From NCBI GenBank assembly GCA_013298595.1, contig JAAFIG010000009.1, forward strand, positions 83,216 to 147,215: a stretch of DNA of 64,000 nt. Reading direction: 5' to 3'. A model generated the notes under the pieces. That model saw only the letters and a program-made list of their open reading frames with translations, did no database searches and had not been told where the DNA came from. Positions 12,822 to 44,718 of this stretch are shown piece by piece. This DNA is from Deinococcales bacterium (GTDB lineage Bacteria; Deinococcota; Deinococci; Deinococcales; JAAFIG01). Each line of letters opens with the position of its first letter. Within the stretch, counting starts at the first letter, position 1. A program made the translations under genes and the position numbers.

Positions 12822-14090
12822 TTGCCCTGTTGCACCCCATTGCTCGAGCGCTTTAATTGGTAAGTGCTCGGCGGCATTTGCACCGTACAAAGCAGCTTCG
12901 ATGCGTAAATCTGTGCCAATTAAAAAATCAGCAGGCATTCGGGTCGCTTCACCATCGGTACTGCCATGCGGGATACCAAGTTTTATACCCTCGAGATAGG
13001 CTGGGAAAGCCCGAAAATCCAATAAGCCCAATAAACTGTGTGATGTACCGTATAAAGCATGAATGGCATCGTCTGGATCGGCTACCAATGGAAATGGTGG
13101 CTTTTGCTTACCAACCCGTTCACGTAAACCTTGGACACTCGAGCCAAAAACACCCACGACCCGAATACCCAGTCTCTCGAGCCGAGGATAAGCTTCTATT
13201 AACTGATGCACTCGCAAATTGCAAAAAGGGCAACCTGCATGACGAAAAAAAGCCAATAATGTCCGCTGACCACGCAGACTTCCTAGGGAAACACTAGAGC
13301 CATCCAAAGCAGGTAAGGTAAAAGCGGGTGCGAAATCACCACGTTTTAATCTGGCGTAACGCCGATGCACACCACGCTGAGCAATTTTAGGTTCGATCAA
13401 ACCACTTTGCTCGAGATGCACAACACGAGGCACGAATTCATCCCAAAGTTGCAAAGCATTACTTGCTACCATCGCTAAGCTCGAGTTACCATCCAAGGCA
13501 TTCAGTAATGCCCAATCGGCAGGCATGAGGCTACGCAGCACACTCGAGAAATCACCAACTCGTTCAGCAATATTAAAAATCGCTTCTGGTTGAATCGCTG
13601 GTAATACCCATTTTTGTACTTCATCGGTACGCCGCGCCACTTCAAGCATCACCGCTTCAACCGATAAACCCAGTTCCAGTAACGCTGGAGAGTCACCATT
13701 TTCAAATTCAAAACCACCTTCGGCACACGACCAAAGCATCAGTAACGCTGATTCTAAACGCCAACGCAACGCCTCGAGCAACTTCTCACGTCCGAGGGTT
13801 GCCAGCACCTGAGTACTTTTGTGCTGCGATAATTCCGCGCCCAAAGAACCAACCACATGCGGTGCAACCCCTAATTTTAGTAAAACATCTGCCAATTTAG
13901 GAACACAACGCCCCGAAACCCCAACCACTCGACCATCCCGAAAAGCAATTTTGCATTGCAAATCTGGGTTTGGCACAGCAAAACGCAGCACCCCTGTTTT
14001 TCCACTACTCGAGATCAGTTGCAGCACCTCAGGAACGGTGAGTAAATCAAAAGTGCCACTTAATTGTTTAGAGCTAATTACAGCAGTCAT
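12810..14090 (-). CDS. DUF4388-peroxiredoxin-like fusion protein
   Basis: A 426-aa protein joining two domains. Residues 1-120 are a DUF4388 domain (LSGTFDLLTVPEVLQLI... TGVLRF), a PATAN-like module common in Deinococcus and other bacteria and tied to two-component and gliding regulation. The middle (about 120-240) is helical. Residues from about 250 form a thioredoxin-fold AhpC/TSA-like domain with FFRHAGCPFCNLRV (C287, C290), then a FPLVADPD..HALYG segment typical of peroxiredoxin-like proteins. The CxxC spacing suggests a redox-active pair. I choose the ATG at 14090. A TTG at 14105 would add five residues. A sensor-type domain fused to a thiol-redox domain suggests peroxide or thiol-state signalling (inference). 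Confidence 0.8.
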   Translation of the reverse strand: MTAVISSKQLSGTFDLLTVPEVLQLISSSGKTGVLRFAVPNPDLQCKIAFRDGRVVGVSGRCVPKLADVLLKLGVAPHVVGSLGAELSQHKSTQVLATLGREKLLEALRWRLESALLMLWSCAEGGFEFENGDSPALLELGLSVEAVMLEVARRTDEVQKWVLPAIQPEAIFNIAERVGDFSSVLRSLMPADWALLNALDGNSSLAMVASNALQLWDEFVPRVVHLEQSGLIEPKIAQRGVHRRYARLKRGDFAPAFTLPALDGSSVSLGSLRGQRTLLAFFRHAGCPFCNLRVHQLIEAYPRLERLGIRVVGVFGSSVQGLRERVGKQKPPFPLVADPDDAIHALYGTSHSLLGLLDFRAFPAYLEGIKLGIPHGSTDGEATRMPADFLIGTDLRIEAALYGANAAEHLPIKALEQWGATGQLPV

Positions 14091-14132
14091 ACTAGGTATA
14101 CGCAAACAAACAACTTTTTAGATGAAACCCAC

Positions 14133-14163
14133 TTGACCTCGAGTGAACTCGAGGTTGTAAGGT
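14133..14163 (+). promoter_or_regulatory. MerR/SoxR-type promoter with 19-bp spacer and dyad operator
   Basis: -35 TTGACC (14133-14138) and -10 TAAGGT (14158-14163) are separated by 19 bp. The spacer region is a perfect dyad: ACCTCGAG (14136-14143), TGAA, CTCGAGGT (14148-14155). An over-long 19-bp spacer filled by a dyad is the classic layout of MerR-family regulated promoters, and the arms resemble the SoxR box (CCTCAAG...CTTGAGG). In this genome, though, CTCGAG itself is very common. No merR-type gene is in the window. Read in the opposite direction no good -10 is seen. Confidence 0.65.
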
Positions 14164-14422
14164 CATTGGCATACGCGTCAGTCATCAAATGCAATTTCAG
14201 CACGGGAGGGAAAAGCCCTACCCCTAGGAAAAACATCGTTGTTGTAGTGGTCGCCTGCTCCGAAAACGGGAGGTCTACTCAAGAAAAAATTGTTTTGTGT
14301 GTTAAGTTGTTTGATGGTCTGCTCGATTTTCAAAGCTACGGTAGTATTCACTTTTGGTGCGTATCATGGTTATCACCAGAATTTTGATAGTAACAATCCC
14401 CTCAAGACTCGAGGGGATTGTT
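14164..14422 (+). ncRNA. Possible structured small RNA from the MerR-type promoter
   Basis: Inferred transcript running from about 14170 to the terminator at 14392-14422. It can form a 7-bp stem GGGAGGG/CCC(A)TCCC-type hairpin (14204-14210 with 14216-14223) and a longer stem with outer GTAG/CTAC pairs and an inner CCTGCTCCG/CGGGAGG stem around AAAA (14244-14278). It matches no RNA family I recognise. It could equally be a decayed gene or the 5' part of a regulatory leader. Confidence 0.35.
14392..14422. terminator. Strong hairpin between convergent transcripts
   Basis: A perfect 12-bp stem, AACAATCCCCTC with GAGGGGATTGTT, around a 7-nt loop. It lies 17 bp past the stop of the giant operon (minus strand) and at the end of the putative plus-strand RNA. 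It is likely bidirectional. T-runs are short on both sides. Confidence 0.8.
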
Positions 14423-14438
14423 ATTGCTTTACTAGAGA

Positions 14439-43076: not shown

Positions 43077-43625
43077 ATGGGTGTCATTATTGTACTGATC
43101 GTTTTGGGTTTACTGGCTATTTTTGCGATTGCAACATTTAATAACATTGTTTCACTCGAGAATCGAGTAGCGAATTCGCTTGGGCAAATAGATGTACAAC
43201 TCAAAAAACGTTCAGATCTTGTTCCTAATTTGGTCAGTACAGTCAAAGGCTACGCCGCTCATGAGAGCAGTTTATTTGAAAAAGTGACGGCTGCCAGAAG
43301 CCGTTTAGATACTGCCAGTGGTGTTGAAGAAAAAGCGGCTGCCTCGAGTGCGTTAAGTGGTGCGCTGCGAACTGTCTTTGCTGTTGCCGAGAATTACCCT
43401 GATTTAAAAGCCAATACCAGTTTTATTCAATTGCAATCCGAACTTGCCGATCTCGAGGATAAAATTGCGTATAGTCGCCAATTTTATAACGACACAGTGC
43501 TTGAATATAATAATTCGATTACAACCATTCCTGGGGTTTTCTTTGCTGGTCCAATGAGTAAAACCAAGAAAATCATGTTTGAAGCTTCTGAGGGTGATAA
43601 AGCCGTGCCAAGCGTTAGTTTTTAA
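43077..43625 (+). CDS. lemA: LemA family protein
   Basis: A 182-aa protein with one N-terminal membrane helix (residues 2-20), then the LemA helical domain: VSLENRVANSLGQIDVQLKKRSDLVPNLV-type start (residues ~25-55), VTAARSRL, the ENYPDLKANTSFIQLQSEL segment and a C-terminal YNNSITTIPGVFFAG motif. LemA proteins expose a small helical bundle outside the cytoplasmic membrane. Their role is not settled. AAGGAG lies eight bases before the ATG. Probable operon with the DUF2207 gene, and a clear terminator follows at 43639-43672. Confidence 0.93.
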   Translation: MGVIIVLIVLGLLAIFAIATFNNIVSLENRVANSLGQIDVQLKKRSDLVPNLVSTVKGYAAHESSLFEKVTAARSRLDTASGVEEKAAASSALSGALRTVFAVAENYPDLKANTSFIQLQSELADLEDKIAYSRQFYNDTVLEYNNSITTIPGVFFAGPMSKTKKIMFEASEGDKAVPSVSF

Positions 43626-43672: not shown

Positions 43673-43761
43673 GCTTTTGGTTTACCGTTACCAACTCAGC
43701 TCAAGAATAGACTTCCTACGAAAGTTTTCGGCACAGGGGGGATTACAAAAAACCGTGTTCT

Positions 43762-43788
43762 GCAGGGCGAACCTTGTGTTCGCCCTGC
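43762..43788. repeat. GCAGGGCGAA...TTCGCCCTGC palindrome
   Basis: Perfect 10-bp arms around CCTTGTG, between lemA and the MBL gene (convergent ends). It resembles mobile palindromic repeats seen between genes in other phyla. It could double as the minus-strand MBL gene's terminator, although no T-run follows. Confidence 0.6.
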
Positions 43789-43824
43789 CCATATTGTTAT
43801 CATAAAATGATTTTCGCAGGAGGT

Positions 43825-44718
43825 CTAATGTATTTGCCAAATCAGTTTATTGCGAATAATTTGGTGCGTGATCAAACCCTGCTCCTCGAGATACGTTAAA
43901 TGTGCCAGTACCGCTGTTTGATTCAGCACATAACGGGTCAAATCAGGCATTTCAATTTCGAGCATTGCACAAACCCGCTCAAGGATTTCTGGGGTTGTGC
44001 CAACGTCCGAGCAGGCACTGAGTACCGCTTGGCTGGCACGCTCGAGCGCGGCTTGGTTAGCATCGCATAAGGCATTGATATTTGTGGTGGGTTGACCGTG
44101 CCCTGGTACAACCACGTTGGCTTTGCTATGACGAATGGTTTCGATGGCATCTTTGGCATTTTGAATATCCACCATAAAAGCCAGTGGGTGTTTCTCGAGA
44201 ATTGCTTCTCCGAACACTGCATCGGCAGCAAAAAGAACATCTTCGACTTGCACTGCAAATTGCATATGGGCATGCCCTGCTACCTCGAGTAGTATTAGTT
44301 CTAAACCTGCGATTTTACGCTTACCTGGTTCATTGAGCACTTTGGCTGGACTGGCACTAGCGAGTAAAAATTTATTATGTAATTCCCGATGTGCTCGTGC
44401 ACCACTCCATAAATACATTGGCTCGAGCAGTGGGTAATGCAAAATGCTCTCCTCAAAAATGGGCGCGTACACAGGAATCTCGAGGTGTTCCACCAAATAA
44501 GCATTGCCACCATAATGATCGGCATGAGAATGCGTATTGATAATAGCTCGAGGTTCGAGATTCAGTTCCTTGCAGCCTTTCAGCAGTTTTTTGCCACTAT
44601 CCTCGGAGTTACCTGTGTCAATAATCAAACAGCCAAGGTCAGGTGTTTGTACCACACCACAGTTGACCCCTCCTGCTAAGTAATAAATGCCATGTTGTAT
44701 TTTGGTTAAACCAGCCAT
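43825..44718 (-). CDS. Metallo-beta-lactamase fold hydrolase
   Basis: A 297-aa MBL-fold enzyme. The binuclear zinc site is formed by NTHSHADHYGG (H63, H65, D67, H68), the histidine in VAGHAHMQ, the aspartate in FAADAVFGE and the histidine in VPGHGQP. A C-terminal helical region (~215-297) looks like a winged-helix dimer domain found in several MBL proteins. It is probably a thioesterase, lactonase or glyoxalase II-like hydrolase. True beta-lactamase activity is not implied. Divergent from the SDR gene, each with its own TANNNT box (TAATCT five bases before this start). Confidence 0.86.
   Translation of the reverse strand: MAGLTKIQHGIYYLAGGVNCGVVQTPDLGCLIIDTGNSEDSGKKLLKGCKELNLEPRAIINTHSHADHYGGNAYLVEHLEIPVYAPIFEESILHYPLLEPMYLWSGARAHRELHNKFLLASASPAKVLNEPGKRKIAGLELILLEVAGHAHMQFAVQVEDVLFAADAVFGEAILEKHPLAFMVDIQNAKDAIETIRHSKANVVVPGHGQPTTNINALCDANQAALERASQAVLSACSDVGTTPEILERVCAMLEIEMPDLTRYVLNQTAVLAHLTYLEEQGLITHQIIRNKLIWQIH

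Follow-up and report, generated by a model that had tools for sequence, protein, structure and literature searches.

The segment at 14133-14163 of the window, the whole 64,000-nucleotide stretch of DNA analysed here, is well supported, to judge from its sequence, as an authentic promoter of the MerR family, and the likeliest reading of the locus that follows it is that of a stranded promoter and not of a small-RNA gene. With a probability of roughly 0.7, a MerR-family operator has been orphaned from its gene by rearrangement, by the insertion of a repeat or by both, and any transcript that leaves it would be a non-coding by-product. An earlier note on this DNA had recognized the promoter layout by eye and had outlined a regulated small RNA of about 250 nt, or the remains of a gene, downstream of it. 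The features discussed below are collected in Table 1.

Table 1. Features of the promoter locus and its two neighbours, in window coordinates.
Feature	Position	Strand	Basis or remark
Start ATG (14090-14088) of the DUF4388-AhpC/TSA (peroxiredoxin) gene and putative -10 TATACC (reverse complement of 14095-14100)	14088-14100	-	sequence; G001 orthologue
-35 box TTGACC	14133-14138	+	read from the sequence; counterpart of TTGAC/TTGTC in the five MerR-adjacent promoters
Operator dyad ACCTCGAGT-GA-ACTCGAGGT	14136-14155	+	9-bp arms, 2-nt gap; weight-matrix score 40.7 bits
-10 box TAAGGT	14158-14163	+	same hexamer upstream of the C14 MerR gene
Decayed GTAG-tagged REP dimer in a MITE-like element	14166-14277		BLAST matches; alignment with other genomic copies
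Left REP hairpin GGGAGGG-AAAA-GCCCTACCC, then CTAG (consensus CTAC)	14204-14223	+	fold, alignment
Right REP, still with its GTAG tag, hairpin lacking its left half by deletion	14244-14277	+	alignment with C16, C18 and C32 copies
16-bp hairpin, 94% paired	14391-14423		probably ends the giant minus-strand gene, as a bidirectional terminator
Giant surface-protein gene, 2695 aa	14439-22526	-	stop codon 15 bp from the hairpin

The promoter and its relatives in the genome

Activator promoters of the MerR family have a 19-20 bp spacer with the operator inside it (PMC9909328, PMC5045206), and the family's sites are defined by a dyad centre that lies 7 or 8 bp from the -35 box (PMC5045206). Between TTGACC and TAAGGT the spacer is 19 bp long, the dyad is placed within it, and the centre of the dyad comes 7 bp past the -35 box, so that spacer length and operator position are both those of the family. 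The MerR-type layout that had been claimed is confirmed in the sequence, and five promoters like it stand beside MerR-family genes of the same genome. The dyad had been described with arms of 8 bp; it is present, but the arms are one base pair longer.

The similarity to promoters beside MerR-family genes is most direct in a BLAST search of 14088-14182 against its own genome (G000), in which the best non-self match is exactly the promoter segment, upstream of a MerR gene on contig C14. It is the only match at E < 0.01, the rest having E values of at least 0.2 and being mostly chance matches at CTCGAG. The C14 promoter (TTGACTTCGAGTGAACTCTAAGGTTTAAGGT, G000:C14:50439-50470) is identical to that of the window at 26 of 31 positions and ends 5 nt before the ATG of its MerR gene, which occupies C14:50476-50853. 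A scan of the genome with a relaxed pattern derived from the window site itself (TTGACCTCRAGTNNACTYGAGGTNNTANNNT, up to three mismatches) returned four further sites at three places, all of them beside MerR-family genes by Pfam, and the reversed pattern, used as a control over the same genome, returned none. Across 20 related genomes no site was found at two or fewer mismatches; conservation of the operator across species is consequently not traceable.

Each arm of the dyad contains CTCGAG, and the caution that this hexamer is common here was right, since the 64 kb window holds 392 copies (about one per 163 bp) where equal base frequencies would predict about 16. CTCGAG is an over-represented palindrome of the HIP1-like kind and is also frequent in the loci read from the genomes G001 and G002; no literature was found that names CTCGAG together with the term "highly iterated palindrome". 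An order-5 Markov model preserving the frequency of CTCGAG served as the null, and its six simulated genomes gave on average 0.17 sites per genome at up to two mismatches and none at zero mismatches, against four observed, the window site included. Because the window site itself had supplied the pattern, the pattern scan and the Markov null bear on the promoter class, and the C14 BLAST match and a scan with a weight matrix bear on the window site; the independent tests are the other sites and the matrix scan.

That matrix was built from the five MerR-adjacent promoters only, with the window site left out. The window site scored above all five of them (29.5-38.8 bits, leave-one-out). The next-best score besides those of the training five was 16.0 bits, directly upstream of a MerR gene (L059), and the best unrelated score was 11.8 bits, in a background of about 825,000 positions made up of the window and the other loci examined and not of the whole genome. 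On the Markov null and the matrix scan together, chance arising from CTCGAG abundance alone was rejected as the origin of the promoter.

Several observations on the related promoters may be recorded here. One operator type, with half-sites resembling CTCRAGT/ACTYGAG, is common to the five MerR-adjacent promoters despite their differing regulators (L035-L038, L115). On C28, an aldo/keto reductase gene and a MerR gene have two divergent operators with 4 bp between them. An NmlR-like gene at C12:191537 (L059 1303-1731) is apparently frameshifted or truncated past its HTH domain, and the perfect dyad AAACCTTAGAGTGCACTCTAAGGTTT lies immediately upstream of it.

A dispersed repeat and a neighbour's probable terminator downstream

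The earlier note had placed two stem-loops after the promoter and, about 230 bp on, a strong terminator. The stem-loops exist, but they consist of the arms of a repeat that is dispersed in the genome, together with the terminator hairpin. Copies of the repeat aligned from elsewhere form an element of about 145 bp with terminal inverted repeats (TAGACCTCGGGCGAAAGTC ... GACTTTCGCCCGAGGTCTA) and TA at its ends, the interior of which consists of a pair of inverted hairpins with GTAG tags that face each other (CTAC-spacer-GTAG). At E ≤ 1 the element has at least 57 matches in the own genome and at least 44 in G001, and full, partial and single-hairpin copies are numerous across four genomes of the family. 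The GTAG tag, the hairpin, its inverted partner and the terminal repeats are all present in several copies elsewhere; the window copy keeps the tag and one hairpin, the other partner and the terminal repeats having decayed. Its left end is uncertain (it is recognizable from 14180) and its left terminal repeat is hard to make out, while the right end is GAGGTCTA at 14270-14277, with much of the right terminal repeat deleted. A second GTAG REP/MITE copy lies at 43708-43827 of the window, in the gap between genes ending at 43625 and 43825.

A resemblance to the element speaks against a stranded promoter. The promoter opens with the 15 bases TTGACCTCGAGTGAA, which agree with TAGACCTCGGGCGAA, the terminal repeat of the element, in 12 positions; given this resemblance and the collinearity that would result if 14148-14179 were an insert, the left half of the promoter could be transposon-derived. 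In its strongest form this becomes a coincidence without any MerR site, the left arm being a REP/MITE terminal inverted repeat (14133-14147) separated from the remainder of the element, which resumes with AGTCATCAAATGC at 14180, by a 32-nt insert that happens to carry a second CTCGAG and a -10-like hexamer. The abundance of CTCGAG counts in favour of this reading. It would, however, leave the right arm, the -10 box and the exact 19-bp spacing all to chance, a combination absent at zero mismatches from the six simulated genomes. The C14 promoter, moreover, shares TCGAGTGAACTC and TAAGGT with the window and similarly resembles the terminal repeat, although no element is recognized there, which indicates that the resemblance is inherent in the operator type. 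We therefore regard coincidence as unlikely. It is conceivable, too, that the history was mixed and that one half of a now usable operator came from a transposon end.

The hairpin at the far end is real, but to call it a strong terminator was an overstatement, as its U-tracts are poor on both flanks and a terminator consensus scan did not return it. It lies 15 bp from the stop codon of the giant gene, the 3' end of which is about 270 bp from the promoter. Homologues of the giant gene in G001 and G002 have a hairpin with CTCGAG in the same place, and for this reason the hairpin is best assigned to the giant gene, possibly as a bidirectional terminator. The stems of the three CTCGAG-containing terminator hairpins (L040, L041 and the window) differ in sequence.

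Gene neighbourhood and the fate of the promoter

That no credible protein gene follows the promoter had been stated before and holds: the frames between 14064 and 14442 gave nothing in Pfam (best E 0.2) and lack a credible start, and a hidden protein gene in this interval was rejected on these grounds. In three comparison promoters the start codon comes 5-7 nt after the -10 box; in the window, the repeat starts there. The suggestion that the locus is the remains of a gene comes nearest to these findings, although downstream of the promoter no coding trace of such a target gene was recognized.

On the other side of the dyad, the DUF4388-peroxiredoxin gene reads away from the promoter. Its orthologue in G001 (L014, 65% identity), the only genome of the same genus that was compared, has TATAAC-4 nt-ATG at the same place, but a Zn-metallopeptidase gene lies 50 bp upstream of it instead, and in G000 that metallopeptidase sits on another contig (C4). 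Because the upstream neighbour of the peroxiredoxin gene differs, the locus is, by this comparison of gene order, rearranged in one of the two lineages, and for the same reason the ancestral target gene is not identifiable. The segment 14110-14425 has no match in G001. With another neighbour upstream of the peroxiredoxin gene and no counterpart of the segment, the conservation of the transcribed unit that a trans-acting small RNA would show in relatives is lacking in that genome.

It could be argued that the operator serves the divergent peroxiredoxin gene, a MerR protein at 14136-14155 modulating a promoter about 35 bp away. The operator is 46 bp from the start of that gene, and MerR operators are often found in divergent intergenic regions. 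Against this, the -35/-10 polarity points away from the gene, the gene's own -10 box is kept in G001 without any dyad, and the divergent pair at C28 has one operator for each direction; control of the peroxiredoxin gene is thus highly improbable.

A small regulatory RNA under MerR control, about 250 nt long (14170-14423) and with the REP hairpins co-opted as functional structure, would have a credible promoter, a hairpin terminator behind it and no open reading frame, and the plus-strand RNA fold is more stable than its shuffles (z -4.15). A stable fold is, however, what a palindromic repeat and a terminator hairpin lead one to expect, and the structured part is explained by a dispersed repeat that is here decayed by deletions. 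The hairpin at its end stands at the 3' end of the giant gene and is assigned to that gene, neither the window nor the locus gave an Rfam hit above threshold, and no such region exists upstream of the peroxiredoxin orthologue in G001. The dedicated regulated RNA that had been proposed is not borne out by these findings, and we consider it very unlikely. A ligand-inducible non-coding RNA that is driven by a MerR protein, takes its body from a captured REP/MITE copy and is ended by the neighbour's terminator is likewise very unlikely.

For the promoter as such, the family mechanism is one in which an unliganded MerR dimer keeps the promoter shut and the liganded dimer realigns the -35 and -10 boxes (PMC7722741, PMC9909328). 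If the promoter is stranded, a MerR-type dimer on the dyad would still hold it closed and, with ligand, would twist it open, but the gene that it formerly served would have been lost as the locus was rearranged. A REP/MITE element, by now decayed, would have come to lie about 3 nt after the -10 box, where the sister promoters place the start codon. From a live promoter, transcription would be predicted to start near 14170, to run through the repeat remnant and to stop at the giant gene's hairpin near 14420, yielding a non-coding RNA of about 250 nt. Such an RNA would probably have no dedicated function, and would overlap only with the 3' untranslated end of the giant gene's transcript.

Although CTCGAG abounds in this genome, the MerR-type layout picked out by eye is thus real, and an operator class with candidate regulators is now defined in a little-studied lineage of the Deinococcales. 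A dispersed repeat and the terminator of a neighbouring gene account for the RNA part of the proposal, and only a demonstrated transcript would justify pursuing it as a new small RNA.

Candidate regulators and comparison with known systems

The dyad matches the E. coli SoxR box CCTCAAGTTAACTTGAGG, as quoted in PMC4411124, at 15 of 18 positions by our count, and the two also agree in lying between -35 and -10 boxes with a 19-bp spacer. The likeness ends there, for no SoxR protein was recognized in this genome. The search for MerR-type genes that had been called for gave 13 MerR_1 matches in the 4.58 Mb draft (94% complete), but none of the 13 has the SoxR motif C-x2-C-x-C-x5-C, and the NCBIfam SoxR profile TIGR01950, run on ten MerR proteins, reached at best 68.3 against a cut-off of 116.9. 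For lack of a SoxR protein among these, SoxR is rejected as the regulator, and the idea of a SoxR-like, redox-induced RNA is left without support.

The repeat is akin to the tail-tail GTAG-tagged REP dimers, some of which are nested in longer palindromes, as in GTAG-15 of A. variabilis (PMC3733652). Common to both are a GTAG beside a G+C-rich hairpin, inverted units that face each other, a longer inverted repeat and TA at the ends; the window copy differs in being decayed, and it was not matched to any named family. The sole Y1 transposase found in the genome looks, on our reading, IS200-like rather than like a RAYT.

Closest to the window promoter is the NmlR/AdhR type represented by C14. For regulators of this type, a response to aldehyde and oxidative stress has been described (PMC9909328). 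NmlR is the best NCBIfam profile for the MerR proteins at C14, C28 and C12, with scores below its cut-off, and the C14 protein contains no cysteine. From promoter similarity, the C14 MerR (NmlR/AdhR-like) or a close relative is the most likely binder of the window operator. No MerR gene was found on the window's own contig (C68), and the window promoter has neither a regulator nor a target gene adjacent to it; since orphan sites are allowed for members of a regulon, the missing neighbour weakens the claim of a working unit and not that of an operator. The two promoters differ in what comes after them, which in the window is repeat debris from about 3 nt past the -10 box in place of a regulator or target gene, and they have in common the TTGAC of the -35 box, the 19-bp spacer, the dyad centre and the -10 box TAAGGT.
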